From assembly GCA_023717605.1 (NCBI GenBank), contig JAMQPH010000536.1, positions 1 through 35,342 on the forward strand: a stretch of 35,342 nucleotides of DNA, in the 5' to 3' direction. Shown here piece by piece: positions 1-16,472 of the stretch. The number at the start of each line of letters is the position of its first letter. Within the stretch, counting starts at the first letter, position 1. The notes below the pieces were generated by a model that searched no databases, was not told where the DNA came from, and saw only the letters and a program-made list of their open reading frames with translations. The stretch comes from Pyrinomonadaceae bacterium. Its GTDB lineage: Bacteria > Acidobacteriota > Blastocatellia > Pyrinomonadales > Pyrinomonadaceae. Made by a program: the position numbers and the translations under genes.

Positions 1-3000
1 ACGTTCCGTTCAAATCAGGGCCAGTGCCGCCGGTGCCAACCGTATTATTTGCGACGATTGTGTTCTTGATGTTGACCGTGCCGGTGCTGATATTGAAGAT
101 GCCACCGCCGTCGGAGCTGGCCGTGTTCCCGCTCACGGTGCTGTTCGTCAGGGTCAGCGTGCCGCCGAAGTTGAAGATGCCGCCGCTGTGGCCGGCGCTG
201 GCGGTATTGCCGCTCACCGTGCTGTTTGTGAGCGTGACTGTCCCGCCTTGGTTGAAGATGCCACCACCGAAGCTGGCGCTGTTCCCGCTCACCGTGCTGT
301 TCATCAGAGTAAGTGTGCCGCTGAAGTTAAAGATGCCGCCGCTGTTTGAGCCGCTGCCACCAGCGGCGGCGTTGCTTCTCACTGAGCTGTTTGTCAGAGT
401 GAGCGTACCGCCGTTGCTGTAGATGCCTCCGCCTGAGCCGTCAGAGGCAGAGTTATTGATCAGAGTGCTCCTGGTGATGTTGACTGTACCGGTGTTGAAA
501 TTGAAAATCCCGCCGCCGAAGCCGCCGGGAGCAGAGTTGTTACTGAGCATGCTGTTGGTGACGTTGACTGTCCCTGTGCTGCCGTTGTAGATGCCGCCGC
601 CGCTAATAGCAGAGTTATTAGTAAGCGTGCTGTTCATGACCTCGACTGTGCCGGTGCTGTTGTTGAGAATGCCCCCGCCGCCGCCGCTATTCCCATTCGA
701 GATGGTCAACCCTGAGATTGTCACGGCTCCCGGACTCGCGACCGTCACGTTGAAGATGCGGAAGTTAGGCGTGCCCCCTGCGTTGCTGCGTTGCACCGTT
801 AGCAAACTCGCGCCCGGCCCATTGATGGTCATCGAAGTCGAAAGATCGGGTAGCGCATTTGACAGTGTGATTGTGCCAGTCAGCCCTGCCTGGAAGTTGA
901 TGGCATTGCTGCCGGCGTTCGAGTTGGCTTCCGTAATCGCCTGGCGCAGGCTGCCCGCACCACTATCAGCGGTATTTGTGACCAGGATGCTCTGAACTTC
1001 GTAGGCGCCGATGTCCACCGTGGCGGCGCCATCACCGTTCCCATCCATAGAACGGTTGAAGCCAGTGCCTCGCTGATCGAAAGGTGTGGCTTCAGAGGTG
1101 TTGCCATCTCCGTCCAGGTCCAATGTGTCTGGAGGCAGGTTGGCGTTACTGCCTGCATCAACAGCCGGACTGCCCGTCAGGAGCGAGTGTGTCAGGGTCG
1201 GACCGCCGTAGTTGGCGAGCGTGGCTAGCTTTGGATCCTCAACCCCAACCTGATTGTTATTCGTGCCGTTAGTTAGACCACCTGAGCCGCCGGTACCGAT
1301 GAGGTTGAATGAGCTGGATGCAGCGTTCACCGTCCCAGAAATGTCATCGGGTGTTGTGCTGGGACTTGCGCCAAGAAAATTACCTGCAACTACAGTATTT
1401 TTCAAAGTCAGATTACCGCTCTCCTGAAACAATCCTCCGCCACTAAGGTTGCCAACGCGATTAGCGGTAACGGTGACGTTTGTTAGCGTAGCGGTGTTGA
1501 AAGTAATGATACCGCCTCCAAAAAAGGTTGCATGATTGCCACTGATGGTGCTGTTGCTGAGTGTTAATGTACCGGCACACCAAATACCGCCCCCGCCCGT
1601 TCCGGCGGAACCAAAGCCAGTCGTATTCCCGCTGATCGTGCTGTTGAGGATGGTGAGCGCAAATGAACTCGAAATACCAGCGGCCGAACCGCCGCCCAAT
1701 AGGCCGTCGCCGGTGACGTTGCCGCTAATCGTGCTGTTGGTGATGGTTAGTGTGCCGAAATCGTAGATGCCACCGCCCTGACCACCCACACCGCTGGTTC
1801 CAATGCCGTCACCGGTCTGGTTACCACTGATGCTGCTGTTGCTCAGGGTCAACGTGCCTTCGCTAAAGATACCGGCACCGTAGCCCCCAAGCCTCCCATC
1901 GCCGGTGGAGTTGCCGCTGATAGCAACTCCCGTTAAGTTCAATGTGTCATTAAAACTGTTGAGAACGCCGCCGCCATGCTCACCCTCGACGCTGTCTGTC
2001 CCGTCCGCGGTGTGTCCATTGGAGATCGTCAATCCGGAGATGTTCACCGTGATTCCGCCGCCGAGGATCGTAAAGATGCGGAACCTCGGTGTCCCGCCGG
2101 CGGAGCTCCGCTGTACGCTTAGCGAGCTCGCTCCCGGACCGGCAATCGTCATATTGCTCGACAGATTGGGAAGAGCCGTCAAGAGCGAGATCGTCGCAGG
2201 TCCACCGGCAGTTAAGGCAGGCGCGAAGGTAATTAGCTCGCCCCCGGACTCGGCGTTAGACGCATCGATAGCCTCGCGCAAGGTACAGCCGTTTCCGGTG
2301 CCAACCGGCGTGCATGAGCCATCGCTTGAATCGTTGGTCGAATTTACCTGAAAGCTGTGTGCTTCATAAGCCCCGATGTCGCTGCCGTTACCTCCGGCGG
2401 CGTTGGTCGCAGTAGGGTCATCAACCGGGCGCAGCTCTCCCCGCTGGTCGTTTATCAGCGCAGTGTTGCCGGCATCGATGGCGGGGCTACCAAACAGAAG
2501 TGCATGAGTAAGCGTCGTGCCGCCATTTGCAGCGAGCGGGCCAAGCAAGGCGTTGACGTTGGTTATGTTGTGCGTGGTGTTACCCGTGAAGTTGCCGCCG
2601 CTCGTGTTGCCGATGAGATTGTAATCTTGAGAGTTAAGGTTAAAGCCGTTGCAATCAGGACCAGAGGGAGAAGTATTGCCAGCGATAATTGTATTGCCAA
2701 ACGTAAGAGTGCCAATGCCAGGGTTGTAAACACCTCCGCCGCTTGTGCTCCCGCTATTACCAGCGATAGTAGTGTTCGTTAGTGTCGCAGGGTTGACACT
2801 TGCAAGCCCCCCGCCTTGAACCGCAGCGTTAGCGGAAATAGTGGAGTTGGTAACAGAAGTATTACCGCCGTTGTAGATGCCGCCGCCGAGATTTCCGCAG
2901 TTGTTGTTCGAGACTGTGCTGCTATTAATCGACTGTGTGCCGACGCCAACGCTGCTAATGCCGCCCCCATTTGTCACTGCTGTGTTATGGGAGACGAGGC

Positions 3001-3616
3001 AGTTGTTCAACGTCATCGAACCGCTGCTACTTATGCCTGCACCGAAAGTTGCATGGTTACCAGTAACTACGCTCATGTTTACTATCAGCGTTCCTTGATT
3101 CAAGATTCCGCCTCCCGAATCGGATGGGAAGCTGGCGCCAGCTGCATTCCCGTTTGAGATCGTCAAACCTGACAGCGCTACAGTCTGGCCCGAATTGATC
3201 GTCAAGATGCGGAAGTTTGGTGTTCCGTCGGCAGCACTGCGCTGCACTGTCAGCGCATTCGCGCCCGGACCGTTAATAACGAGGTTGCCGTTAACGTCAT
3301 CGAGTGCAGTATTAAGCGTAATGATGCTGCCACCCGGCAAAGTAAAAATAATCGTGTCGTCACCCGCAATGTTATTCGCCTGCTGGATTGCCGCCCGCAA
3401 TGTGCACGCGCCCGTGCCATCGTTGCAAATCCCATCTGCCAGGTTGCTGTCCACTCCATCGCCTGTCGAGTTGACAGTGAAAAGGGTTGCGGCGCGGGCA
3501 ATTGGAAGAAATAGGTTTAGAAATTGGTTCGAGACAGCCGGCAAGCTTATTAAGACTAACAGGAGCAACAAAACCAGGAGGGGCGTAAGGGTATAGCGAT
3601 GGGCTGTGGGAGGCAT
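1..3616 (-). CDS. CSLREA / right-handed beta-helix / choice-of-anchor Q surface protein (partial)
   Basis: The reading frame is open from an ATG at 3616 to the left edge, so at least 1205 residues are present and the C-terminus is missing. A GGAAG ribosome site lies about 9 nt before the ATG. Residues 1-43 form a signal peptide (MPPTAHRYTLTPLLVLLLLL...). Three tandem modules follow, starting near residues 44, 424 and 869. Each opens with a CSLREA-type motif (CTLRAAI, CTLREAI, GSLRQAI), then a TVQRS..GTPNFRIF block, then many beta-helix turns of the type LTLTNSTVSGNTAS.GGGIFN. Modules 1 and 2 close with a choice-of-anchor Q block (GPLANGG..THALL.GSPAIDAG, then DIGAYE). By family knowledge this is a cell-surface or secreted beta-helix protein resembling polymorphic outer membrane proteins. 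Ligand and function are unknown. I checked the frame in many segments and found no stop. Confidence 0.9.
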   Translation of the reverse strand, partial: MPPTAHRYTLTPLLVLLLLLVLISLPAVSNQFLNLFLPIARAATLFTVNSTGDGVDSNLADGICNDGTGACTLRAAIQQANNIAGDDTIIFTLPGGSIITLNTALDDVNGNLVINGPGANALTVQRSAADGTPNFRILTINSGQTVALSGLTISNGNAAGASFPSDSGGGILNQGTLIVNMSVVTGNHATFGAGISSSGSMTLNNCLVSHNTAVTNGGGISSVGVGTQSINSSTVSNNNCGNLGGGIYNGGNTSVTNSTISANAAVQGGGLASVNPATLTNTTIAGNSGSTSGGGVYNPGIGTLTFGNTIIAGNTSPSGPDCNGFNLNSQDYNLIGNTSGGNFTGNTTHNITNVNALLGPLAANGGTTLTHALLFGSPAIDAGNTALINDQRGELRPVDDPTATNAAGGNGSDIGAYEAHSFQVNSTNDSSDGSCTPVGTGNGCTLREAIDASNAESGGELITFAPALTAGGPATISLLTALPNLSSNMTIAGPGASSLSVQRSSAGGTPRFRIFTILGGGITVNISGLTISNGHTADGTDSVEGEHGGGVLNSFNDTLNLTGVAISGNSTGDGRLGGYGAGIFSEGTLTLSNSSISGNQTGDGIGTSGVGGQGGGIYDFGTLTITNSTISGNVTGDGLLGGGSAAGISSSFALTILNSTISGNTTGFGSAGTGGGGIWCAGTLTLSNSTISGNHATFFGGGIITFNTATLTNVTVTANRVGNLSGGGLFQESGNLTLKNTVVAGNFLGASPSTTPDDISGTVNAASSSFNLIGTGGSGGLTNGTNNNQVGVEDPKLATLANYGGPTLTHSLLTGSPAVDAGSNANLPPDTLDLDGDGNTSEATPFDQRGTGFNRSMDGNGDGAATVDIGAYEVQSILVTNTADSGAGSLRQAITEANSNAGSNAINFQAGLTGTITLSNALPDLSTSMTINGPGASLLTVQRSNAGGTPNFRIFNVTVASPGAVTISGLTISNGNSGGGGGILNNSTGTVEVMNSTLTNNSAISGGGIYNGSTGTVNVTNSMLSNNSAPGGFGGGIFNFNTGTVNITRSTLINNSASDGSGGGIYSNGGTLTLTNSSVRSNAAAGGSGSNSGGIFNFSGTLTLMNSTVSGNSASFGGGIFNQGGTVTLTNSTVSGNTASAGHSGGIFNFGGTLTLTNSTVSGNTASSDGGGIFNISTGTVNIKNTIVANNTVGTGGTGPDLNGT

Positions 3617-4070
3617 TCTGTTCACTTCCTTTTTTGGGAACAAGCGTGGACGCGCTAACTATGAACGAGGAGAACTCGGACACACGCGGGACCCTAGCGG
3701 GGTGCCGCACCCTAACAAGTAGAACTTTGAATAGCTAATCTATCTCGTACTCGAGAAGTCTGCAGAGAGAAGCTCAGAGCACGATCCCCGGCCAGATCTA
3801 GACTCCAGAGGGGGGGCACAGGCTCTCCCTTGCAAGCTCATAAGAAATGGCAACATTGAGACAATCAGCTCTGATTTGGCACGGATTGAGCGTGACGGGT
3901 TGCCGGGCATTCTTAATCTTCCTGTTTTGCGGACGGAGCGGAAGTGCGCAGAAGTTCGTTGGGAGGGAGACCCCAAAGAACTGCGCAATACCTTACAGGT
4001 ACGCGCATGCTACGAGGGATCTGGCTCAATAGTCAATCGCCAGATTAGAAGCTTGGTCTGGTGACTACTA
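3617..4070. other. Intergenic region, 454 bp
   Basis: This gap separates the CSLREA gene from the G8 gene, both on the minus strand. Open frames inside it are short and do not look like protein. It holds a candidate minus-strand promoter (4007-4036), leaving a leader of nearly 400 nt before the ATG at 3616. I see no strong terminator behind the G8 gene. Confidence 0.6.
4007..4036 (-). promoter_or_regulatory. Candidate sigma-70-type promoter for the CSLREA gene
   Basis: On the minus strand TTGACT (4036-4031) is followed after 18 nt by TAGCAT (4012-4007). The -35 box matches consensus at five of six positions and the -10 at four. It lies about 390 nt upstream of the ATG at 3616, so the leader would be long. 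Prediction from sequence only. Confidence 0.35.
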
Positions 4071-7000
4071 TTAGGGCCCAAATCGTTGCCGGTACTCGCT
4101 GGAGATGATGAATGCTTTCACCATTTCGGCGTTGACGAAGTTGCCGTTGAACTGGTTTAGCTTGTTCAGCCAGAAATCGTAACCGGCGAAATTCAAGCCG
4201 GGCTCCGGCGCATCGTTTGGATTGCGACGCAGGTAGCCGAAGTACTGCATCAACACAAACGCTCTATTTGTTTCCTGCTGGGCCAAGGTTGAGTTTTCTG
4301 CCACCCGCCGCAACGCTCTTCCGCGCGCGGCTGTATCGGCCGTGTCACCAGTTCCGGCAAACTCGTTGATAGCAGCGTTTCGATCCATCGCTGAGGGCGT
4401 GACACCTGCGTTCATGAACAACGCGTCGACAAACTGCGTTGGCGTTAGCGTCGTCGGATGAGCGGTACTAAAGGGCGACCGCGTCACAAAGTCAGCCGCG
4501 AAGGCCTGCTTGTTATTCGACAGCGCCAGCTCCCAACCTGTCTGTCCTACAACTACTCCCTTCCCTATCTCCTGCGTGTCGGGAAGAAACTCCTCGAACC
4601 TTACGGGCACAGGCGTTCCCGGCAAATTGCCGTACGCAGCTCGATACATCCGGTGAACCAGATAGCCAGTCTCCTGGAATTCTATAGACAAGAAAAATGC
4701 GGCGGAAGTGTTAGCGCGCTTGAGATCAACGCATGCCGCGTCATTGCCGCATGAGGTGATCTGATTGGTCCAAAAGGCCAAACCTGGGGCGTCAGGCTGC
4801 CGGTTAAGAAAGTCATGGTATTGCTGACAGACAAACATGCCCGGGTCATCTATGACATTCCCCCCCGGCTCAGAGGCGTCGTCCAGGATTTCAACGGTCG
4901 CAGTGCTGAGCGTGCCCAGGTTTGCACCGGTTGGGTTGCTCAGCGTGATACTGGCCGTCTCTGTACCTTCGCTGCGCGAGTCTTCCGTGATCAGGACTGC
5001 GAAGTTTTTGACTGACTCACCCGGTGCGAAGCGAAGCGTACCGTATGCGGCGGTGAAATCGGCGCGGTCGGAGGCTGTGCCGCTCGACGTGGCGTAGCGG
5101 ACAGTTGACTCACTGGAAGTGTCACCAACGCGTGTCACTGTAATGCTGAGGCTCGTGCAGTCTTCGACGATGCTGTAGCTCGCCGCACTGAATTGCAACG
5201 TCGGAGCCGAACCCAGCGTCGTCCCATTCACGACGCTCGAGAACCCTGAGAGGTTCCCGGCGGCATCGGTTGCGCGGACTCGGTAACGGTAGCTCGTTCC
5301 GGCCGTGAGGCCCGTATCAGAAAAGGCAGTGGCCGTGGGGTTAGCGATCTGCGTGAAGGATGTGCAGGCGGCGCCCTGACAGCGTTCTACCCGGTACTCT
5401 GTGACTCCCACATCGTCCGTGCTCGCGCTCCACGAGAGGGTGATCTGCGAACTTGAAACGACGGTGGTGTTGAGGCCGGCCGGGGTTGAGGGCGACGTGG
5501 TGTCGGGAGGCGGAGGGGTGGTGGTGTTACAGGTAATGCCGGCAACCTCCGGTCGAGTGGTGGTGTCATTACAAGGGGCGAGGCCGCCGTAGATATTCTG
5601 TGTCGCTTGCGCGTTAAAGTACGCTTGGAAGTTGTTGCCCACTTGACCCTGGTAGTCGTAGACCTTCACTTCATAGTTGTCACCTGGCTGGTTATTCCCG
5701 CTCCCGGTGTTGTGATACATCTCAATCGTTTGTAGCGGCCGGCCGGGCCAGGCACGTATGGTGTTGTTCCGAAGGATCATTGTCACTCCGGAAGCCGGTC
5801 GGTCAGCGCCGGTGCCTGGAGTGGAAGGGGTTTCAAAGTTGAAGGCGTGACCGTAGGTAACAGCGTCGATATTCTCAAAACGGAAGGTACCCAGGGGATC
5901 GACGCAATTGCCGAACACGCTTCCCCCATGAATGCTACCCCCGCGAATGGTTATATCAATGTTGCGGTAATCGCCACATATGAAGGCGCCAGGCATGTAA
6001 AGAGAAATCGAGGGATCTGCGCGAGAAGTAAGGCCATCGATCGTTACGCGGTGAGAGGGATAATTCCAAACTGCTGACTCATAAACATTCCAAACGCGGA
6101 AGTCCTTTATCAAAGTTTCCTGGATTCCAGTTGGAACCTGATACCCATCGGTTCCGAGCTCCCAGGAAGTGAAACCAACAGAGGAACCGCCATAAACCTC
6201 ATTGCCCCGGAATTCAAGGATCGGCTGGTATTGAGGAGTGACCGCAATAGTCTGACTCGTATTCGTCATGTCAGCGCCGCGAACGATAGGATTTCGGGCT
6301 GTGTATGGTGCGGCCTGAACGATGAATTTCCAGCCCGGGCCGGTGGCAACCTGCTGGGATGGATTACGACAATCGGAGGCGACATTGTTGATGAAGCGGT
6401 TGTTAAAGCCGTGACTCCAATAGCACTCCGCTGCCGATCCGGGAGTAGAACCGTCTTCCGTACTAGGGCCGCTGTTTCTCGCGTTAATATTCCCTCGAAT
6501 GCTCGCCACGAAGTTCTCTTCAATGAGGTTCTCGGTTTCAGTACCATCCTCAATGGCAATACCGGAACCGGTAAGTTGGCTCCCGCCGAAGACAACATTT
6601 TGCTTTATGAGACCATAGTGACTTCCGTGTAACGCCATAGGCCATTTCAAGCTATCGTTTATCGCGTTGCCGACGAACTTGAATTGATATCCGGTGTTTG
6701 TCGGATTTGTCGGACCCCAGAGATGGTGCGCATGTAAAGGATAGCGGCCGATATGGTTGGTGGTGCGATCTAATTCCTCGGCTTTTGTTCGGCCCAGATC
6801 TTGAAACTGGACGTAAGCAATCTCGGCGTTGGTTCGATGAGTGAGCAGCGTGTGCCCGCGCGTGCCGGATGGGCTTTCGGAGCGGATAACAACATTCCTC
6901 GTTAGGTTACCCACATGTGGCAAGAGTTTGATGCCGTTCGAAAGTACCGTGGAGGTCCCATTGGCATCCCGTGCTCCGCGGTGATCAAAACTTAAGGCGG

Positions 7001-8066
7001 CAGACAAAGTGACCGTCCTACCGTCTGGTGAAATGCTCTGAATTGTTCGCTCATCGATTTGGAGAGCATAGTTTGCGTTAAACCAATTGTCAGGATGGAC
7101 CTGTCGTGTGTCCGGAACGAAGATCCTGTCTCCGACCCGCCATCCCGTTACTGGCTGCTCGAGCGTGAGAGTGGTATTTGCCGCTCTAGGTTCCGAGGCC
7201 GTGCGCACAAACGTTGGAGTCTTGACGGCTCCGTGCATTGTGACTATGCCGTCGATTGATATCAGACCCGTGCCATATTGGTCGGGATCCGAAGTGACGT
7301 TAAGCGATCGGTTGCGGATAATGATTTCTGCAGTAACCGCGGATGAGACGGGTTGTGAGGCAGTTCCGACTTCCAGGATGCCATTCGGCTGGACCAACAG
7401 CACCCCTACCTGGAGAAGGGTGTTAATGTCGGTGCGGAAGCGGAGCGCTCCTCCGGCGGCAATACCAATCACATCGGCGATGCCAATCGAGGACTCGTAT
7501 GTGACGGCATGATTCACGAGCACAATATCACTCGCCGTGGGAACGCGGCCGAGGTCCCAGGTAGAAGCGCTGGACCAGTTGCCGTTTGTTGCAGACACTA
7601 TGGTCGCGTTCTGGGCGAAGTTCGGGATGGTGTCATTGTGGGTGGTGAAAACTGGAGGTTGGGTTCCGCCCTGCATTGTTACGTGGGCCATCGTCGAGTG
7701 CGAACTGTGAGCGCTTCGGTATTCCGCGGAGTGGTCCTGGAGCTTTTCAATTGACTTACTACTACTAACGTCCCTCTTGCCGCTCAGCCAACCGCTCGAC
7801 CTGCCCTTCGTCAACGATGGGTCACCGTCAGCCGTCCCCGTGCCGTCGCCCCTGGTGACTGGAGCCGCGGCGATCCTGGCGCCGGCAAAAGCAGTGGTAC
7901 TACGCTCACTCAATGTTCCCGGCACCGATGATACCCGGGGATCAACTGTTTGTGACTTCGCTACAGCAAAACGCAGTAGCACCACTGCACAGGGCAGGAT
8001 CAACGCGGATAGCGTAAGCGCCAGAGCTAGACGTTTGAGAAAACCTGGGTAAGTTCGATCTCTCAT
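4071..8066 (-). CDS. G8-domain, CEMIP-like beta-helix protein with FN3, Calx-beta and DUF4214
   Basis: The protein has 1331 residues from the ATG at 8066. A longer TTG start at 8084 is rejected because its first codons contain the ribosome site AGAAGGAGAGG. An N-terminal hydrophobic segment (residues 10-37) is a signal peptide or anchor. A low-complexity linker leads to a G8 domain (about 154-255; NWSSASTWDLGRVPTASD), then a parallel beta-helix. The helix carries GRYPLHAHH (about 439-447), close to the GRYPIHFH signature of animal CEMIP/TMEM2 hyaluronidase-like proteins, and an IAIEDGTETEN segment (about 502-512). An FN3 domain (858-949), Calx-beta (955-1062) and DUF4214 (1074-1331) follow. 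The resemblance suggests binding or cleavage of an extracellular polysaccharide, but activity is an inference. The C-terminal cassette is shared with the next two genes upstream. Confidence 0.9.
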   Translation of the reverse strand: MRDRTYPGFLKRLALALTLSALILPCAVVLLRFAVAKSQTVDPRVSSVPGTLSERSTTAFAGARIAAAPVTRGDGTGTADGDPSLTKGRSSGWLSGKRDVSSSKSIEKLQDHSAEYRSAHSSHSTMAHVTMQGGTQPPVFTTHNDTIPNFAQNATIVSATNGNWSSASTWDLGRVPTASDIVLVNHAVTYESSIGIADVIGIAAGGALRFRTDINTLLQVGVLLVQPNGILEVGTASQPVSSAVTAEIIIRNRSLNVTSDPDQYGTGLISIDGIVTMHGAVKTPTFVRTASEPRAANTTLTLEQPVTGWRVGDRIFVPDTRQVHPDNWFNANYALQIDERTIQSISPDGRTVTLSAALSFDHRGARDANGTSTVLSNGIKLLPHVGNLTRNVVIRSESPSGTRGHTLLTHRTNAEIAYVQFQDLGRTKAEELDRTTNHIGRYPLHAHHLWGPTNPTNTGYQFKFVGNAINDSLKWPMALHGSHYGLIKQNVVFGGSQLTGSGIAIEDGTETENLIEENFVASIRGNINARNSGPSTEDGSTPGSAAECYWSHGFNNRFINNVASDCRNPSQQVATGPGWKFIVQAAPYTARNPIVRGADMTNTSQTIAVTPQYQPILEFRGNEVYGGSSVGFTSWELGTDGYQVPTGIQETLIKDFRVWNVYESAVWNYPSHRVTIDGLTSRADPSISLYMPGAFICGDYRNIDITIRGGSIHGGSVFGNCVDPLGTFRFENIDAVTYGHAFNFETPSTPGTGADRPASGVTMILRNNTIRAWPGRPLQTIEMYHNTGSGNNQPGDNYEVKVYDYQGQVGNNFQAYFNAQATQNIYGGLAPCNDTTTRPEVAGITCNTTTPPPPDTTSPSTPAGLNTTVVSSSQITLSWSASTDDVGVTEYRVERCQGAACTSFTQIANPTATAFSDTGLTAGTSYRYRVRATDAAGNLSGFSSVVNGTTLGSAPTLQFSAASYSIVEDCTSLSITVTRVGDTSSESTVRYATSSGTASDRADFTAAYGTLRFAPGESVKNFAVLITEDSRSEGTETASITLSNPTGANLGTLSTATVEILDDASEPGGNVIDDPGMFVCQQYHDFLNRQPDAPGLAFWTNQITSCGNDAACVDLKRANTSAAFFLSIEFQETGYLVHRMYRAAYGNLPGTPVPVRFEEFLPDTQEIGKGVVVGQTGWELALSNNKQAFAADFVTRSPFSTAHPTTLTPTQFVDALFMNAGVTPSAMDRNAAINEFAGTGDTADTAARGRALRRVAENSTLAQQETNRAFVLMQYFGYLRRNPNDAPEPGLNFAGYDFWLNKLNQFNGNFVNAEMVKAFIISSEYRQRFGP

Positions 8067-8465
8067 GAAACCTCTCCTTCTCAACGAAGGGTCCGAACGG
8101 ACGGCGGTGTCGGTGGCAATTTCACTGCCGAAGACCGGTCAAGCTGAAGTGAGGAGGCCGACGACAGCGAGCTTGGAGTCCGAGTAGATCTTGAACCCCT
8201 GTGCACGCGCAAACCGGTCAGAAACGGTGTGACCTAATCCTGCGACGGTCAGTCGATTGGGGGCAGTTCACCCCGGGGTAGCAATGATTGTTGAACAGTC
8301 GGTAAGGAAGGGGCAGCTCGAAGCGAGCCTCGATATGCAGTTGCAATTATAAGGGAGCGCGGAGATCTCGGTCAACGGTTTGCTCTCTTTCTTCGTTCCT
8401 ACCGCTCCGGCAAGTCACATCGAAGATTGCTGAAAGAATGGAGGGTTTTTGGGCATCGCCGTTCG
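8067..8465. other. Intergenic region, 399 bp
   Basis: This gap lies between two minus-strand giant genes. It contains a good candidate promoter (8346-8375) for the G8 gene and otherwise no convincing coding sequence. No clear hairpin terminator follows the stop at 8466. Confidence 0.6.
8346..8375 (-). promoter_or_regulatory. Sigma-70-type promoter for the G8/DUF4214 gene
   Basis: Minus strand: TTGACC (8375-8370), an 18-nt spacer, then a perfect TATAAT (8351-8346). It is the best promoter match I found in the window. Its position implies a 5' leader of about 275 nt before the ATG at 8066 and separate transcription of that gene from its upstream neighbour. Confidence 0.6.
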
Positions 8466-11400
8466 TTAGGGACCGAAGCGCTGCCGGTACTCACCAGAGA
8501 GGATAAATGCTTTCACCATCTCTGCGTTGATAAAGTTACCGTTGAACTGGTTAAGCTTGGCTAACCAGAAGTTATAGCCTTGAAAATCCAAGGTCGCTTC
8601 CGGCGGATCGTTCGGGTTTCTTCTCAGGTAGCCAAAGTACTGCATCAGTACGAAGGCTTTGTTTAACTCCTGCTGGGCAAAGGTTTGGTTCTCAGCAACC
8701 ATCCGCAGTGCCCTTCCCCGTGCGCTCATGTCCTGGCTTGTGGCCGCTGTGCCGAACTGACTAATGGCCGCCGTTAGCTCGGCTGCTGACGGTGTCACGC
8801 CAGCATTACTAAAGAGCGCGCTAACAAACTCCGCCGGTGTCAGCGTCGTCGGATGAGCACCGGCAAAGCGCGAACGGGCTACGAACGCTGCAGCGAAGGC
8901 ATTCTTGTTGTTCTCTAGTACCTCGTCCGAGCCTCCCTCTCCAATGATTAAACCCTGCCCAATCTCCTGTGCATCCGGCAGAAACTCCTCGAAGGTCAGC
9001 GGCACCGGAGCGTTCGGAAGGTCGCCGTAGCTCGCTTTGTATATCCGGTAGACAAGATAGCCAGTCTCTCGAAATTCTATGGAAAGGAAAAAGGCTGCTG
9101 AGACATTGATCCGCCTCAGTTCAACGCATGCCGCGTCACCTCCGCAGGAGGTAATTTGATCTCTCCAAAAGGCCAAACCCGCTGGATCCGGTTCGCGTCT
9201 GAGAAAGTCTACATAGTGTTGTCGGACGAACCATCCCGCGCCTGCAATTGGATTAGTCCCATCAACGTTCTCGTTATCCGTGATCGTCACGGTAGCGGTG
9301 CCATGGGAACCCATTTCCACTCCAGCAAGATTACTGAGACTAACTTCAAAGCGCTCGCTACCTTCAGCATAAGCATCATCGATGATGGGGACGAAGATCG
9401 TCTTCGACGTTTCACCAGGAGCAAAATGCACGTTACCGATTGAGGTTGTGTAGTCGCAACCCGAGGACGCCTCCTCCGTGCCAGGCGCGCTGCAATTGTC
9501 TAAGCCCGAGTCGTCGCTGGTTGAGTAAGTGGCAGTAGCCGGGTCGGACGAGTCGCCTGTGCGCACTACCGTAAGCACCAGGCTAGTCTCGCTCTCAACG
9601 ATCTGGTAGGTGGCTGCGCTGAACCCCAACCTGCTTATCTGTCTCGCGGCAAAATCGGCGATTCGACTGCCGTCCACGTCAACAAAAGTCGCGCTTGCCG
9701 GCGTGAAGAGGTACTCGGTTTTGGCTGGGACGACGATGTAAGTGCTTCCCGCCAAAACGCTAAAGGAGAACGTGCCGTTCGGGCCGGTTATTGCCGAACC
9801 CGACTCAGCACCCGAAAGCGATATGGTTACGCCAGCCAGAGCGACTCCGCCCGCAGTAGTAACTCGCCCTGTGATCGGGTATCGGTTCAGTGTCCCGGTG
9901 AAGTTGGCGGTCTGACCTTGACTGAGGTTGTTAAAAGACACACTGGGAGGAACGAAGGTGTGGTGCACCTTGATTACCGTTACCGTATAGCTGCCTTCTG
10001 CGGTTGCCACGAAGCTATAGTTACCATTCGCGTCTGTAGTTGCCGTGGCTGCCTGTGATCCCGAAAGTGTAACAGTAGTTCCGCTCATGCTTTGACCAGT
10101 AGAATTCAAAACTCGACCTGCAATTGAGTAGCTCCGAAGCGCACCTGTGAAATTCGACACCTTATTTGCCTCGAGATCATTGAACTGCCGAGTTGGCGGC
10201 GAAAAGTCGTAGTTTTGTTTCGTTAACGTGAGCGTGTAGTCACCTTCCGCCGGTAAGTTTAAGCTGTAGTTGCCAGTCGCATCTGTCGTAGTGGATCCGC
10301 TTTGGGAGCCTGAGTGAGTGACAGTGACGCCGCCAAGCGGTTGGCCTGTGGATTTAAGGACACGACCTGAAATCACGTAATTATTGAGAATGGCCGTGAA
10401 GTTAGCCACGCGGTCACCGCTCGGGGTCGTGGCGGTCCAAGTCGGAGAATTGAATGTATAGTGGACCCGCGTTGGAGTTAACGCGTACACCCCGCTGGTT
10501 GGCAGGCCCTCAAAGCGATAATTACCCTGGGCATCGGTTTGCGTTGCTATTGCCGGCGATCCGTTTACGCTCAGCGCCACTCCGGGCAGCGCCACGCCAT
10601 TTTCCTTCAAGATTCGGCCCGTGATGGAAAAGACGGGTGCAGGTCCGGTGCCGAGATAAGCTGACAAGTCCAGCCGCTTCGCGGCCAAGCAGGTTGCGTT
10701 TGTGCCACAGCCAAACAACAGGTTTGACCAATAGTCATGCCCTGCAGCGTCGGGTTCGTGGCCCAGCACACCCAGGTATTGTTGACGCACGTATTGGACG
10801 TGATCCTCGGCCTCCGTAACGGTCTCAATCACTTCGGTGATTTGCGCCTGCGAATCCAGGTGAGTGTAGATCGAGTTGATCACCCTAAGCCGCCCTGTGC
10901 CGGCGTTCGCCATGATTCGATTAGCGGCGAGCAGGCATTCCAGCCTATCTAAAGTGGCTTCGCCGACGTTAAGGAGATCGACCGCCGCAGCTGCTAAATG
11001 ACTCCATCCGAACCTCGAGCGCTCAATGAGTACTCGTTTAGCGCGATTGATATAGACGCCGGATGCATTGAGGTTGGACACATTCATCCGCAGATCGGAG
11101 ATGTAAACTAGGTCACTGGCAGCGCTCTGTGGATCGTAATAATCTGGAATAACCGAGACGCCAAGGAAACCACCCTCGTCGAGAAACACGTTGCGAATCG
11201 TCACTTCTCTTCTGGGCGAGAGATTACTGGTGGCAGATGAGTTACCGACCATAATCCACGAAAAGGGGGCCGCGAACCCAAGCTTACCGAAATAATTAGG
11301 TCGCTGGCCATAGTCAGCAAAAATGCTTTCAGTTACTGAAAGGTCTTTCCATGTGGTATTCAAGACAACAGGGCCGCGGACGCCGCTATTCGCCGTGCAT

Positions 11401-12053
11401 CCTAAAAACACAGTGCGGTCAATCGAAAGGCGGCTGCTGTCTGCGTGGACGATTGCCCCGCCCGCAACCAGACTGCTGAGACCATAGAACTCGCTGTGTC
11501 GAATTGTCGCGTTAGTTACAGCGTATATTCCGAGCGTTACCTTCGCGTCAGTGAGGGCCTCCTGCGTGCCGATGAAAACCATTTCTGCGACTAACAGATT
11601 TTCCAGCCCCCGCAGAGATAAGGCGGTCGCTGCGGCGCCCGTCCGGATTACAAACTCCGAAGTCAGATCTAGACCATGAGTAAGTTCCTGCCCGTTGCCC
11701 TGTGTGTTAACGGGCGTTGAAGACGGAACCCCGACAATGGTGAGCGACGCGCCACTACCTGAGAAGTCCTTCAGGACTGGTGTGATAATGGCGTAACGCC
11801 CTGCAGGCACGAAGAGTATCCCACCGCCAGCTTGTGCTATCGAATTTAGCGCGCTTTGCAGTGCCGGCCCGTCATCCGTCACTCCGTCGCCGACTGCGCC
11901 GAACGCCGTCAGGTCAAAAGTATTTTCGTCAGAAGGCGGGGCGGGCGTGCTATGAACGGTTCGTGTGGATCCAACAGGGCGGGCCGTACCGACCGTCTGT
12001 GTGAGTCCAGAGAGAGTCAAGAGTATGACCAGAATGAGGATGCTGCTTCTCAT
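8466..12053 (-). CDS. Pectate-lyase-like beta-helix protein with four CpD-regulatory-like repeats, Calx-beta and DUF4214
   Basis: The protein has 1195 residues with an N-terminal signal peptide (MRSSILILVILLTLSGL...). Residues 45-90 carry the pectate-lyase superfamily opening (FGAVGDGVTDDGPALQ, GGGILFVPAGRYAI), leading into a right-handed beta-helix to about 400. Residues 418-468 are a short, single DUF4214-like unit (YVRQQYLGVLGHEPDAAGHD). Four tandem repeats of about 83 residues follow (475-806), each with ITGRVL...G.AL.GVT, TDA.GNYSF and Y..TPT...F; they resemble carboxypeptidase-regulatory or SdrD-B-like folds. Calx-beta (about 808-925) and full DUF4214 (about 934-1195) end the protein. 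A secreted carbohydrate-related surface protein is likely; lyase activity is not established because I cannot place catalytic residues. The ATG at 12053 has only a weak nearby GGA as ribosome site. Confidence 0.9.
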   Translation of the reverse strand: MRSSILILVILLTLSGLTQTVGTARPVGSTRTVHSTPAPPSDENTFDLTAFGAVGDGVTDDGPALQSALNSIAQAGGGILFVPAGRYAIITPVLKDFSGSGASLTIVGVPSSTPVNTQGNGQELTHGLDLTSEFVIRTGAAATALSLRGLENLLVAEMVFIGTQEALTDAKVTLGIYAVTNATIRHSEFYGLSSLVAGGAIVHADSSRLSIDRTVFLGCTANSGVRGPVVLNTTWKDLSVTESIFADYGQRPNYFGKLGFAAPFSWIMVGNSSATSNLSPRREVTIRNVFLDEGGFLGVSVIPDYYDPQSAASDLVYISDLRMNVSNLNASGVYINRAKRVLIERSRFGWSHLAAAAVDLLNVGEATLDRLECLLAANRIMANAGTGRLRVINSIYTHLDSQAQITEVIETVTEAEDHVQYVRQQYLGVLGHEPDAAGHDYWSNLLFGCGTNATCLAAKRLDLSAYLGTGPAPVFSITGRILKENGVALPGVALSVNGSPAIATQTDAQGNYRFEGLPTSGVYALTPTRVHYTFNSPTWTATTPSGDRVANFTAILNNYVISGRVLKSTGQPLGGVTVTHSGSQSGSTTTDATGNYSLNLPAEGDYTLTLTKQNYDFSPPTRQFNDLEANKVSNFTGALRSYSIAGRVLNSTGQSMSGTTVTLSGSQAATATTDANGNYSFVATAEGSYTVTVIKVHHTFVPPSVSFNNLSQGQTANFTGTLNRYPITGRVTTAGGVALAGVTISLSGAESGSAITGPNGTFSFSVLAGSTYIVVPAKTEYLFTPASATFVDVDGSRIADFAARQISRLGFSAATYQIVESETSLVLTVVRTGDSSDPATATYSTSDDSGLDNCSAPGTEEASSGCDYTTSIGNVHFAPGETSKTIFVPIIDDAYAEGSERFEVSLSNLAGVEMGSHGTATVTITDNENVDGTNPIAGAGWFVRQHYVDFLRREPDPAGLAFWRDQITSCGGDAACVELRRINVSAAFFLSIEFRETGYLVYRIYKASYGDLPNAPVPLTFEEFLPDAQEIGQGLIIGEGGSDEVLENNKNAFAAAFVARSRFAGAHPTTLTPAEFVSALFSNAGVTPSAAELTAAISQFGTAATSQDMSARGRALRMVAENQTFAQQELNKAFVLMQYFGYLRRNPNDPPEATLDFQGYNFWLAKLNQFNGNFINAEMVKAFILSGEYRQRFGP

Positions 12054-12293
12054 ATCCTATCGTTGTTGGTTAGCAGTCTGTGTTTGGGGAGACGAATGGG
12101 CTTAGCGGGGGGTTGTCGTGGCGCTCCGGAGGAAAGCTTCAGCAATCCGGTCGGACACGGCCTATTTTAAGATGCTGGGAGACCTGCAAAAGTCTTAAAG
12201 TTTGGAGCATTTTGAAAAAAAAAGACTTGCTTTGAAATCGAGGACACTGTCGGGGGCGGACCGCATACTCATCGTTCGTTATCCTAACACAAA
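12054..12293. other. Intergenic region with T-run, 240 bp
   Basis: This gap lies between two minus-strand giant genes. On the minus strand a run of nine T (near 12223-12231), flanked by AAGTCTT/AAGACTT inverted heptamers, could help terminate the gene that stops at 12294, but the stem is weak. I see no convincing promoter for the gene starting at 12053. Confidence 0.4.
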
Positions 12294-15200
12294 TCATGGG
12301 CCAAACCGTTCCTTATATTCACCGGCGAGCAGAAATGCCTTGACCATTTCAGCGTTGACGAAGTTGCCATTAAACTGGTTAAGTTTGGCCAGCCAGAAGT
12401 TGTAGCCACCAAAGTCTGCGTCGGGCGCATCGTTAGGATTCCTCCTTAAGTAACCAAAATACTGCATGAGTACGAACGCCTTGTTGAATTCTTGCTGCGT
12501 CAATGTGGAATGCTCTGCAACCCTTCGCAGCACTCGAGCTCGGGCCCCCTGATCTACGCTCGTAAGAGCGCCAGCAAACTCGTTGATGGCAGCATTCCGC
12601 TCTGCCGTCGATGGTGTGACGACAGCATTAGCGAAAAGGGCATCAACAAACTGAGGCGGTGTTATTGTTGTTGGATGGGCAGCGATAAAGCGCGTTCGAG
12701 CTACAAAGTCCGCGGCATAGGCGTTCTTATTATTCTGTAACTGTAGCTCCCAGCCCGGCTGCCCGACCACCACTCCTTTGCCAATCAGCTGCGTGTCCGG
12801 CAAAAATTCATTGAACCTCAACGGGACAGGTGCACTCGGCAGATTTCCATAGCCCGCTTTATAGATCCGGTAGACCAGATATCCAGTTTGCTGGAACTCA
12901 ATCGATAGGAAGAAGGCAGCCGAGACGTTGACACGCTTCACTTCAATACACGCTACATCCGTCCCGCATGAGGTCAACTGGTTCGTCCAAAACCCAAAAC
13001 CAGGGGGGTCAGGTTCGCGGTTGAGGAAATCGAGGTAGTGTTGTCGCACAAAGAAGTTAGGCTGATCAATTGGATTGGCTCCATTCGTGCTCTCGTTGTC
13101 ATTGATCGTGATAGTGGCAGCCGTCGGTGGGCCAAGGCTGCTGCCACCAGGATTGGTAAGGCTGACTGTAAAGCTCTCACTGCCTTCCGCATAGGAATCA
13201 TCAACGATCAGCACTGAAATGGTCTTAGAGGTCTCACCGGCCGCGAACGTCACCGTCCCGACGGCTGCGGAATAGTCGCAGCGTGACGACGCGCTTCCAT
13301 TGAAAACATTGCAGCCATTCGAGCCTGAGCTGTCGCTCGTGGCATAGCCTACAGTGGCGGCAGCGGACGTATTGCCTGAGCGAGTCACCGTAAGGTTTAC
13401 AATTCCCTCCCCCTCACCGACACCGACGTTATTGGCGTTAAGCGCAACCACGCTGGCAGTAGGTGAACTCTGGAATTGTCCGCGAATCTCCCCACTGGTA
13501 AACATGCTGCTGTGAACATTGATGTAGTGCAATCCATTCTTCAGGTCCTGGACCTGGGGAGCTGTCAGGTTGATCTGAAAATCGTTGAGCTGACCTAATG
13601 GTAGTGGGACAACCGGAGGCGCGGTGACGCCAGGCGCCGCCGGCCCATGGATATGCGCGTCAGTCTGTTGACTCGACAAACCACTGAAGCTCAACGCCAG
13701 CCTCGCAGTTTTTTCGTCATGGCTTAGCACGAGCGTTGCCGTTCCGGTTGCGGTGGAACTGTTCGGCGGAACCTCCTGCATTCCATTCAGAGTAGCTACA
13801 AAGATCTGGCTTGGTTTTGATTTGATCTCGTAAATTGAGCCGCTCAACAGCGAAACGACGAAAACGTTTCCGTTGGGACCCGTTTGTATATCAGTCGTGA
13901 CGCCGAAGTCTCTCCCGATTGCCAGACTCTCACTCTCCGTAAGATCAAACTTGTCAGCGTTGTCGGCGACGAGATCGTCCAGAAGTGAATTGCCGAACGA
14001 GAAGTGCTGGCGGTTGGCGGTTAGCTTGAAACGAAATAGATAGCCATTGAGAAGGGTTGTTCGCGAGGCGCCAACGAACATGTCTGACTCGAATTGTGGC
14101 CCCAGCCCCCGGCCGTTTACGAAACCAAGTGCCGAAGGAGCAACTGCATACTTCCAACTAAACTCCGGGTCCGCATATTGCGCGCCTGGAAGCATGTACA
14201 TTCGCGCCAGCGCCGCCTGCGCCGTGTCGGCAATATTGCTCGGTGGCCAGCGCAGTTGTTGCAGGGTGCCGTTAGCGTAGGTCGATTCAATCGACTTGAA
14301 TTCATTAATGCGGCCGAGTGGGCCCATTGCCTGGATCCACCCACCGTTGAAACCAGGAGTTACACGATTCATTTCGTCAAAAGCATCGTCACCATTTTCC
14401 TGCGTCCACAGGAATCCGCTGATCGGATCAAACCCCATCCCAAATCCATTGCGAATACCATAGGCATAGATTTTTTTGATATTGGCTGCTGCCTGGCCAG
14501 TCAGTGGCGTGGTCGCATTGAAGAAGGGGTTATCAGTTGGGGTCGTGCCGTCGGCATTCAGGCGAAGGATCACACCCGTCATGTGTGCATCATCGGGCTC
14601 GGGTCCGCCAAACTGATCGTCGGGTACCGGACCGCCGCTGGTGATGTTCTGTAATAAACCGCGGCGTCCATTATCGCCAAAAAGGATGTAGAGCTTGCCG
14701 TCAGGTCCAAAGCGCAAGACGCCACCGTCGTGATTTCCCCGCGACGGCTGGCCAGCGTCCGCTTGCAAGGCGCGCAGGCTGATCAAGTTCCGATCAAAGG
14801 TCAAGGTTGATCCATTCCAGACGTAACGATCGACACGATTTCCGAGCAAAGCAATCGCGTCGACGTCCAGGGTATCTGCCCCGGTGTTGCTTTCAGTCCA
14901 GAAAAGATAAACCCATCCATTAAGGGCGAACTGCGGATGCAAGGCGATGCCGAGCAGCCCGCGCTCGGACGCTGAGTTCACATTGAGATCGAGCACTGGA
15001 CCTTGCAGCGTGCCGTTTGTCACTCGCTGTACTCTACCGCTCGCCTTCTCAAGCACCAGGATATCGCTCGGTCCAATAAACGCCATGGTTGTTGGCTGCT
15101 GCAGTCCGGAGACAACAGTGCTGACCATGAGATTGTCATCCAGCATTGTGGGCGAAGGAGCGGACGGCTGGATGAAAGTCGTGACGGTCGCCGAGTTGTT

Positions 15201-16472
15201 GCTGGTATCAAAGTCGGTCTCACCCGAACTGACCGTTGCTGTATTGATGATCGATCCGGTCGCCGACGGGTTAACGACAATGGTGATGACGGCGGTTGCG
15301 CCCACAGCCAGATTCCCCAACATGCAGGTTACCGGTCCGACGTTGGTGCACATCATGCCTTGAGAGGGCGTCGCCGAAACAAAACTTACTCCCGATGGAA
15401 GTGTGTCGCTCATACTCACATTCGTGGCGAGGGCAGGACCATTATTTGTTACCGTGACGCGATAGGAGAGGTTGAGACCCACCTGCCCCGGGTTCGGTGA
15501 AGCTGACTTGTTCAAGGAAAGATCAACGCTCGATGGACTAATCACTCTTAGTGTCACCGGAACTGAGTTCATTATCATTCCGGCCGTTCCCGTGATGTTG
15601 ACCGTGTAGTTCGCAAGAGGCGTGCTGGCGCTTGTGCTGATGGTCAATGTCGAAGTTTTCGAAGTTGCGTCGGTGATATTTATGGAAGCAGGATTGAAAC
15701 TTGCGCCCGCCCCCGACGGCAAGCCTGTCGTGCCGAGAGCAACTATTCCGGTGAAGCCAGCCAGTGGAGTGACCGTAACCGAATACACTGCACTGTCACC
15801 TGGGATCACCGACCTCGAGGATGGAGTCACCGTTAAGGAAAAGTTCGGCGTACTTGAGGCGGATGAAGAGGCAACGAAAGTCTTATAGATAAAGTCGCCC
15901 GAACTATTGCCATCATTATTCGCATGATTCCCCGCCGCGTAAAAGATCACCGTCCCGACATCCGTCGCCGGCGCCGTCCAATCAAAGGTCCAACTCGCAC
16001 TGTTCAGCTGTCCTATGAACGTGCCTGCCGGACTGTGCTCGATGTACTGGCGGGTTCCGCCGGGACCTCCATTGTTGAGCACTTGCGTCAGACCATCAGT
16101 ACTCTGCAGGTTGCCGGCTCTTTCATCAGAAGGATCGAGGGCTGTTAACTCGAAGCCCCAACGCGTTCTGGTGTTATCCGCATTGCTGTTGGTTACGGTA
16201 ATCGTATAGGTCTGACCGGGAACATAAGTCGGGGGAGCGGATATTGAGATTTGGCCCAGTGGCGGATCCCCAACCGGCACATGGCATTCGGCGCACGCCT
16301 CCGGCTCTTCTCTCGGCGCTCCGGTATAACCAGGTGGCGGCCCGTTGGAAAAGGCTTGTACAGGTGGGTTGGTATTGGTTGTCAGTAAGAATCCGACGAA
16401 AGCGACCAGGATAGACGGAAGTAGTATCAGTCGGGCTTTTTCGAATTTGTGGGTTGAGAGAGTGCCAGACAT
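12294..16472 (-). CDS. Choice-of-anchor V (CxxCH) / DUF11 / PQQ sugar dehydrogenase / CHRD / Calx-beta / DUF4214 protein
   Basis: The protein has 1392 residues. A signal peptide or anchor spans residues 12-40. A CAECH motif (60-64, a c-type haem-binding pattern) opens a Reeler-like choice-of-anchor V domain to about 200. An Ig-like segment (210-310) and DUF11 (315-435) follow. A glucose/sorbosone dehydrogenase beta-propeller spans about 445-886; GNHDGG (His581) and GIRNGFG (Arg674) match the catalytic His and Arg regions of soluble PQQ glucose dehydrogenase. CHRD (888-1001; DAHIHGPA, HSS.FTSGEIRGQ), Calx-beta (1006-1127) and DUF4214 (1136-1392) complete it. By family it would oxidise a sugar outside the cytoplasm using PQQ; substrate unknown. 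No clear ribosome site precedes the ATG, and a strong hairpin lies just upstream, so translation and promoter are unclear. Confidence 0.9.
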   Translation of the reverse strand: MSGTLSTHKFEKARLILLPSILVAFVGFLLTTNTNPPVQAFSNGPPPGYTGAPREEPEACAECHVPVGDPPLGQISISAPPTYVPGQTYTITVTNSNADNTRTRWGFELTALDPSDERAGNLQSTDGLTQVLNNGGPGGTRQYIEHSPAGTFIGQLNSASWTFDWTAPATDVGTVIFYAAGNHANNDGNSSGDFIYKTFVASSSASSTPNFSLTVTPSSRSVIPGDSAVYSVTVTPLAGFTGIVALGTTGLPSGAGASFNPASINITDATSKTSTLTISTSASTPLANYTVNITGTAGMIMNSVPVTLRVISPSSVDLSLNKSASPNPGQVGLNLSYRVTVTNNGPALATNVSMSDTLPSGVSFVSATPSQGMMCTNVGPVTCMLGNLAVGATAVITIVVNPSATGSIINTATVSSGETDFDTSNNSATVTTFIQPSAPSPTMLDDNLMVSTVVSGLQQPTTMAFIGPSDILVLEKASGRVQRVTNGTLQGPVLDLNVNSASERGLLGIALHPQFALNGWVYLFWTESNTGADTLDVDAIALLGNRVDRYVWNGSTLTFDRNLISLRALQADAGQPSRGNHDGGVLRFGPDGKLYILFGDNGRRGLLQNITSGGPVPDDQFGGPEPDDAHMTGVILRLNADGTTPTDNPFFNATTPLTGQAAANIKKIYAYGIRNGFGMGFDPISGFLWTQENGDDAFDEMNRVTPGFNGGWIQAMGPLGRINEFKSIESTYANGTLQQLRWPPSNIADTAQAALARMYMLPGAQYADPEFSWKYAVAPSALGFVNGRGLGPQFESDMFVGASRTTLLNGYLFRFKLTANRQHFSFGNSLLDDLVADNADKFDLTESESLAIGRDFGVTTDIQTGPNGNVFVVSLLSGSIYEIKSKPSQIFVATLNGMQEVPPNSSTATGTATLVLSHDEKTARLALSFSGLSSQQTDAHIHGPAAPGVTAPPVVPLPLGQLNDFQINLTAPQVQDLKNGLHYINVHSSMFTSGEIRGQFQSSPTASVVALNANNVGVGEGEGIVNLTVTRSGNTSAAATVGYATSDSSGSNGCNVFNGSASSRCDYSAAVGTVTFAAGETSKTISVLIVDDSYAEGSESFTVSLTNPGGSSLGPPTAATITINDNESTNGANPIDQPNFFVRQHYLDFLNREPDPPGFGFWTNQLTSCGTDVACIEVKRVNVSAAFFLSIEFQQTGYLVYRIYKAGYGNLPSAPVPLRFNEFLPDTQLIGKGVVVGQPGWELQLQNNKNAYAADFVARTRFIAAHPTTITPPQFVDALFANAVVTPSTAERNAAINEFAGALTSVDQGARARVLRRVAEHSTLTQQEFNKAFVLMQYFGYLRRNPNDAPDADFGGYNFWLAKLNQFNGNFVNAEMVKAFLLAGEYKERFGP

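Follow-up and report, generated by a model that had tools for sequence, protein, structure and literature searches.

A C-terminal double-DUF4214 module common to unrelated large proteins of Pyrinomonadaceae and its possible role as a surface-attachment tag

Tail genes of the window and the module they share

The window analyzed here, i.e., the whole stretch of 35,342 nt at positions 1 to 35,342 (forward strand) of contig JAMQPH010000536.1 from the Pyrinomonadaceae bacterium assembly GCA_023717605.1 (phylum Acidobacteriota), contains three adjacent minus-strand open reading frames (ORFs), P0001, P0002 and P0003, which are open over the coordinates listed below. Their products combine unrelated N-terminal parts, here called cargos, with a common C-terminal block, and the constant part of this block was found to be a module, or tail, with two DUF4214 repeats, which may retain the proteins that carry it at the cell surface. 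The features of the three genes, in window positions, are as follows.

12294..16472, minus strand: P0001, with a signal-peptide-like N-terminus, CxxCH and choice-of-anchor V, DUF11, glucose/sorbosone dehydrogenase (GSDH), CHRD, Calx-beta and the DUF4214 module, ending in RFGP
12294..13079, minus strand: DUF4214 tail module of P0001, 261 amino acids plus stop
13095..13454, minus strand: Calx-beta of P0001 (residues 1007-1126, Pfam), an optional spacer
8466..12053, minus strand: P0002, with a signal-peptide-like N-terminus, a pectate-lyase-like region, an internal half DUF4214, CarboxypepD_reg repeats, Calx-beta and the DUF4214 module
8466..9257, minus strand: DUF4214 tail module of P0002
9273..9635, minus strand: Calx-beta of P0002 (residues 807-927, Pfam)
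10659..10826, minus strand: second DUF4214 copy (half repeat) within the cargo of P0002, about residues 410-465
4071..8066, minus strand: P0003, with a signal-peptide-like N-terminus, G8 and a CEMIP beta-helix, fn3, Calx-beta and the DUF4214 module
4071..4859, minus strand: DUF4214 tail module of P0003, whose closest counterpart is the module on the P0002 ortholog in a related locus, L071
4878..5207, minus strand: Calx-beta of P0003 (residues 954-1063, Pfam)

Pfam placed Calx-beta and then DUF4214 close to the C-terminal end of all three proteins, with PF13946 (DUF4214) scores of 37.3 bits for P0001, 54.8 bits for P0002 and 37.5 bits for P0003, all above the Pfam gathering score of 23.2. The fronts are unrelated and were assigned to GSDH, DUF11 and CHRD (plus choice_anch_V by NCBIfam) in P0001, to Pect-lyase and CarboxypepD_reg in P0002 and to G8, CEMIP and fn3 in P0003. 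In pairwise BLAST comparisons, the shared block aligned over 387-390 residues with 63, 61 and 60% identity (E 2e-148 to 1e-160), and the corresponding DNA was 68-71% identical over 719-938 bp; the similarity among the three genes is well beyond chance. The remaining BLAST pieces among the three proteins were short or weak, except for the half DUF4214 copy in the P0002 cargo. A preliminary description of this DNA had reported three giant genes with unrelated fronts and one common C-terminal block, still visible at the DNA level, and this was borne out, including the common ending, since all three proteins stop at RFGP.

Alignment of the tails defined a module of about 262 residues, in which two DUF4214 repeats flank a middle segment, the second repeat reaching the stop codon. 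The two repeats can be aligned with each other, and the first begins with two conserved cysteines; a Cys pair 4-9 residues apart was found in the first repeat of 232 of 257 modules, which fits the expectation for an oxidized, exported fold. PF13946 was detected at E 1e-5 in 26/28 tail proteins of the window's own genome and in 55/55 from named metagenome-assembled genomes (MAGs). Calx-beta (PF03160), by comparison, was matched in only 17/28 and 30/55 of these proteins; therefore, the DUF4214 module represents the fixed unit and Calx-beta an optional spacer. Inclusion of Calx-beta in the fixed unit was rejected on these counts and on the position of a swap breakpoint near the Calx-beta/DUF4214 boundary (see below). 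The fixed tail of about 380 residues that had been proposed for the window genes thus holds for the constant DUF4214 module and fails for Calx-beta.

Among further observations on the window genes, P0003 has an alternative TTG start at 8084, and DUF4214 is matched internally in a P0002 homolog encoded elsewhere (L273) as well. The CxxCH motif of P0001 (CAECH; window positions 16281-16295, residues 60-64) lies right after the signal-like stretch and inside the choice-of-anchor V match, and may bind a c-type heme.

Position, ends and distribution of the module

Loci were picked by module similarity irrespective of position, and yielded 257 distinct full modules, of which 5 were set aside because they extend past the 3' end of their locus. 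Across all fetched loci, 247 of the remaining 252 full modules end at most 16 residues before the stop; the distance from module end to stop is at most 5 residues in 195, 6-9 in 2, 10-16 in 50, 17-45 in 4 and 215 in 1, and no ORF among these loci carries two full modules. The preliminary description had named an equal occurrence at internal or N-terminal positions as the result that would speak against a tail, and with these numbers the module is clearly C-terminal. In the 77 named-MAG loci (kept from the best 80 of 452 relatives), 108 of 115 distinct closed ORFs end 0-2 residues past the module, and 69 of the 115 have RFGP as their exact end. No transmembrane (TM)-like stretch was found in the last 60 residues of any of 281 closed ORFs, a set that includes duplicates.

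Only L146:3-2669, the same gene as in L253, continues for long (215 residues) beyond a full module, and this run-on possibly reflects a lost stop or an error. Two other loci, L168 and L169 (G004:C41:1-18000 and G004:C17:1-16000), carry ORF arrays in which DUF4214 repeats of another type lie internally, with some 150-400 residues of variable C-terminal sequence after them, which represents a different use of the repeat.

The bulk of the modules that end 10-16 residues before the stop belongs to genus g47, represented by one genome (G066; 52 modules; 100% complete by estimate), in which the modules have a C-terminal extension of about 12 residues ending approximately in N-x-[ED]-C; the loci of G066 with this Cys-bearing extension are L157-L167 and L177-L195. 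The end Cys and a second Cys about 23 residues upstream are both present in 50 of the 52 g47 modules, with one of the two present in 1 and neither in 1. In the other genera sampled a terminal Cys pair is rare, being found in one g7 protein and in L051 of the window's own genome, where the cysteines are 21 residues apart and, with the count's cut-off of 22 residues from the end, were scored as one. Since g47 gained the end Cys together with the upstream Cys, the pair suggests a disulfide and a C-terminus that stays on rather than being removed. A MYXO-type lipid tag was rejected as an explanation of the g47 C-terminal Cys, as a second Cys accompanies it and no TM helix is present. With at most six ends considered for each of the 17 remaining genera, most read E-Y-x-x-R-F followed by 0-5 residues.

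In the window's own genome, 43 tail-query matches were traced to 35 ORFs or fragments of ORFs that include part of the module, some of which are contig-edge fragments and possibly pieces of one gene; this genome is in 909 contigs with 5.3% contamination, and most of the genomes compared are MAGs. The closest named records are assigned to Pyrinomonadaceae, Blastocatellia, Chloracidobacterium or Acidobacteria. At E 1e-10, the module was present in 48 of 99 genomes of the window's family, and its presence is all-or-none by genus among genera with at least two genomes, with 8 genera carrying it in every genome (g1, g3, g10, g11, g12, g20, g40 and g44) and 7 in none (g4, g6, g9, g16, g17, g19 and g21). 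A panel of the phylum contained the module in 5 of 247 genomes, all five from the window's family. Single DUF4214 repeats were also detected in another family of the same class (three genomes), and locus L174 from that family has two DUF4214 at the C-terminal end of a galactose-oxidase-like protein. A tblastn search of plasmids gave no match.

Cargo diversity and tail exchange

Clustering of 71 cargos (at least 150 residues, with Calx-beta masked) gave 28 clusters, 18 of them singletons, and the families represented include GSDH, subtilase, Kelch/galactose oxidase, TolB-like propellers, FG-GAP, CarboxypepD_reg and pectate-lyase-like proteins. Three of the cargo families have been named by NCBI after other anchors: choice_anch_V in P0001 (105.7 bits, cut-off 42), choice_anch_Q in L041 and in the window gene at 2-3643, and TIGR03118, 'PEPCTERM_chp_1', in L034 (270.7 bits, cut-off 79.95). 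Elsewhere, choice_anch and PEPCTERM_chp families bear PEP-CTERM or other anchors, as their names indicate. Because three cargo families are named after such other anchors, the natural reading would be that the DUF4214 module occupies the place of the sorting tag of other bacteria. Of the tail proteins with their 5' ends in view, 20 of 21 from the own genome and 69 of 81 from named MAGs had signal-peptide-like N-termini by a permissive, home-made rule; the figure for control ORFs was 108 of 181.

Tail genes often stand in tandem, with 38 of 40 adjacent pairs on the same strand, although these pairs are partly non-independent, as some loci overlap (L071/L110/L092 and L087/L101). For 18 proteins the best module match was at least 80% identical, and the cargo was common with that match in 9, different in 6 and out of view for one of the two partners in 3, several of the 18 cargos being truncated by locus ends. 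The exchange of N-terminal cargo on a fixed tail that was originally suspected from the window genes is supported by these six matches with different cargo and by one crossover at the module boundary, which was found by comparison of the window with L071 (JAMQPI010000402). Two neighboring features of the window are needed for this comparison.

2..3643, minus strand: probable fourth tail gene (choice-of-anchor Q and CSLREA), truncated by the contig end
16574..17968 and 17974..20244, minus strand: DUF1501 gene and DUF1800 gene, respectively, immediately upstream of the tail genes and within the stretch collinear with L071

L071 is collinear with the window, having DUF1800 and DUF1501 (818-4503), P0001, P0002 and then the choice-of-anchor Q gene, and it does not contain the P0003 cargo. 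The P0002 ortholog of L071 tracks P0002 of the window across the cargo and Calx-beta, in which 104 sites match P0002 only and 23 match P0003 only, and then carries the module of P0003. The switch lies about 727 nt before the stop, after which 138 sites are P0003-like versus 64, in binomial tests that assume independent sites; the module of this ortholog is 79% identical to that of P0003 and 69% identical to that of P0002. The downstream gene is the same in both, with 75% identity over 236 bp at the start of the choice-of-anchor Q gene, and the DNA between the stop and this gene showed no match between the window and L071. Among 119 family genomes, only the window's own matched the P0003 cargo at E 1e-20, and a longer P0003 query matched 2 of 15 genomes of the genus outside the own genome, only to the Calx-beta end. 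In L110, the counterpart of the window gene at 2..3643 extends over 3447-9896 and encodes 2150 amino acids with the tail present.

The simplest account of these data would be that a new cargo was inserted before a resident tail and that the older cargo, P0002, came to be joined to another tail; the same arrangement could also have arisen if two tails recombined in the relative and the DNA between them was deleted. P0002 homologs in G014 and G006 have their own diverged tails and no match to the other window genes beyond the tail, so the direction is not polarized by them. Both genomes are MAGs, and an assembly artefact is nevertheless an unlikely source of the crossover since the tails are only about 70% identical.

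Partner search, known systems and candidate role

Pairing of the tail with one export or sorting gene, which had been anticipated for the window genes, was not found among the few candidates tested (exosortase, secretin, SprA and neighboring genes). Exosortase was detected in 41 of the 48 genomes with the tail and in 35 of the 51 without it, and is not required for the tail because it was not found in 7 of the 48 tail-bearing genomes, as in G012, which is 97% complete and has 21 module matches. Secretin matches were present in 98 of 99 family genomes, none above the family cut-off, and were unrelated to tail presence, and SprA_N was found in 0 of 99 family genomes, the control genomes being silent as well. 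Many of the exosortase matches are in two pieces (model positions about 2-189 and 183-254; e.g., G000:C119:4107-4949), as if an insert or a divergent stretch were present, and such matches occur in many family genomes, tail-bearing and some tail-free.

The preliminary description stated that no surface-anchoring role was known for DUF4214; this does not hold, as suggestions of such a role are in print. In segmented filamentous bacteria, DUF4214 is named as a likely surface-anchoring domain (PMC12780176), and it has been linked to an S-layer-anchored enzyme in Dechloromonas, a role cited in PMC11970703. DUF4214 was not found in the text of PMC12175726, and no description of the module came up in the term searches of the literature that were made. 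Compared to DUF4214 (PF13946) in general, the tail differs in that two repeats form a fixed unit of about 262 residues at the extreme C-terminus of up to dozens of proteins per genome.

Several known systems share some of these properties. According to PMC11980579, the MYXO-CTERM/myxosortase system likewise marks dozens of surface proteins in a genome with a single C-terminal sequence; unlike the short Cys motif, TM helix and Arg-rich end described there, which is cleaved, the module is a large domain with no TM-like stretch. Identity with MYXO-CTERM substrates was rejected on the 281 closed ORFs, none of which has a TM-like stretch, and P0001 reached 28.9 of the 200 bits needed for the MXYO-CTERM-anchored family, far under the cut-off. 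Substrates of the PEP-CTERM/exosortase system have a C-terminal TM helix, and an exosortase is expected wherever the tag occurs; with TM-like ends in 0 of 281 ORFs and an exosortase in 41 of 48 tail-bearing genomes, this identity was rejected as well. In type IX secretion (T9SS), a fixed C-terminal domain is borne by varied Sec-exported cargos, and the module resembles these domains in being fixed at the C-terminus of varied cargos. Two T9SS-named models, neither of them a sorting-domain model, were matched, T9SSA_dep_M6i in 1 of 28 and PorE in 2 of 55 tail proteins, among the families listed (25 of 37 for the 28 proteins and 25 of 56 for the 55 proteins), and no T9SS sorting model was found in 13 singly scanned tail proteins. 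A likeness of role may also be drawn with the N-terminal domain of RsaA, the S-layer anchor of Caulobacter, described in PMC6978808 as exported, helical and binding the O-antigen of LPS non-covalently; this likeness is of role only, since the RsaA anchor is N-terminal and the module C-terminal and the sequence searches detected no homology between them.

Taken together, the preferred reading, with a probability of roughly 0.6, is that the module folds into a C-terminal domain, is not cleaved off and retains Sec-exported proteins at the cell surface. Retention would probably be non-covalent, to an outer-membrane or envelope glycan, by a disulfide-stabilized module, so that one general attachment tag would serve dozens of unrelated cargos. 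With the tag present in many copies, often in tandem genes of the same strand, fronts and tails would be swapped by homologous recombination within it, and new cargos could gain a resident tag. Several results weigh against surface retention. The signal-peptide rule is weak, with 60% of control ORFs passing it, and partner candidates gave none that fits; for 78 scanned neighbor proteins (62 of the 75 in the own genome and 16 of the 197 in named MAGs), no family recurs generally among the first 25 of 101 listed, with TPR in 5, DUF4331 in 4, and DUF1800 and DUF1501 in 3 each. Searches of the PDB with a single sequence returned only Calx-beta domains of Na/Ca exchangers and integrin, with no relative of the DUF4214 part, and searches with a module profile and a repeat profile each gave one chance match (E 0.03 and E 1.2, respectively). 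PF13946 had no match in Caulobacter vibrioides, and with no PDB match either, the idea that DUF4214 is the RsaA anchor domain is by sequence unsupported. Finally, DUF4214 repeats outside the full module are sometimes internal (P0002 cargo, L166, L168 and L169), and the strict C-terminal rule applies to the full module only.

The extreme C-terminal position and the conserved ends would also suit a secretion signal, read by an outer-membrane exporter of a type II-like or unknown kind, that is not itself an anchor, and secretin-like matches in nearly all family genomes could be seen in the same light. However, these matches do not track the tail and none exceeds the family cut-off, no exporter recurs beside the tail genes among the neighbors scanned, and 262 residues with two repeats and paired cysteines would be large for a pure signal, which makes this explanation unlikely. 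If the module instead bound or oligomerized on external targets, such as a substrate polysaccharide, the matrix or other cells, the proteins would be released or adhesive rather than self-anchored; several enzyme-like cargos (GSDH, subtilase, galactose-oxidase/Kelch and pectate-lyase-like) would suit a common binding module and internal repeats do occur, but 28 clusters among 71 cargos are too diverse for an easy common substrate. Moreover, carbohydrate-binding modules are usually not fixed at the C-terminal end, and we consider external binding quite improbable. Least is to be said for the absence of any common targeting role, with the block merely spreading within genomes by recombination and gene conversion: tandem genes, tail swaps and the restriction to one family among 247 phylum genomes could be accounted for in this way, yet the strict C-terminal position would be left unexplained, as would the likeness of the ends across most of the 18 sampled genera and the attachment to families named for other anchors, and such spread alone appears very improbable.

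Beyond surface retention as such, a broader and more tentative proposal is that Pyrinomonadaceae-like bacteria may possess a separate, unrecognized display system, in which an uncleaved general tag holds the proteins and its many copies act as recombination handles for cargo capture; the window would then represent the P0003 cargo taking the former tail of P0002. An anchoring reading of the module is reasonable from the sequence evidence, and the novelty lies in a C-terminal variant, lineage-wide, of a domain for which surface anchoring had already been suspected. Soils commonly harbor Acidobacteria, and to our knowledge little is known of how they display proteins. In the recorded crossover, the exchange of cargo on a fixed tail can be seen directly. 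If the anchoring reading is true, a single tag carried by dozens of extracellular enzymes and adhesin-like proteins would make the surface proteome of these bacteria readable from sequence, the module would be a handle for surface display, and a common 'domain of unknown function' would become a testable anchor.

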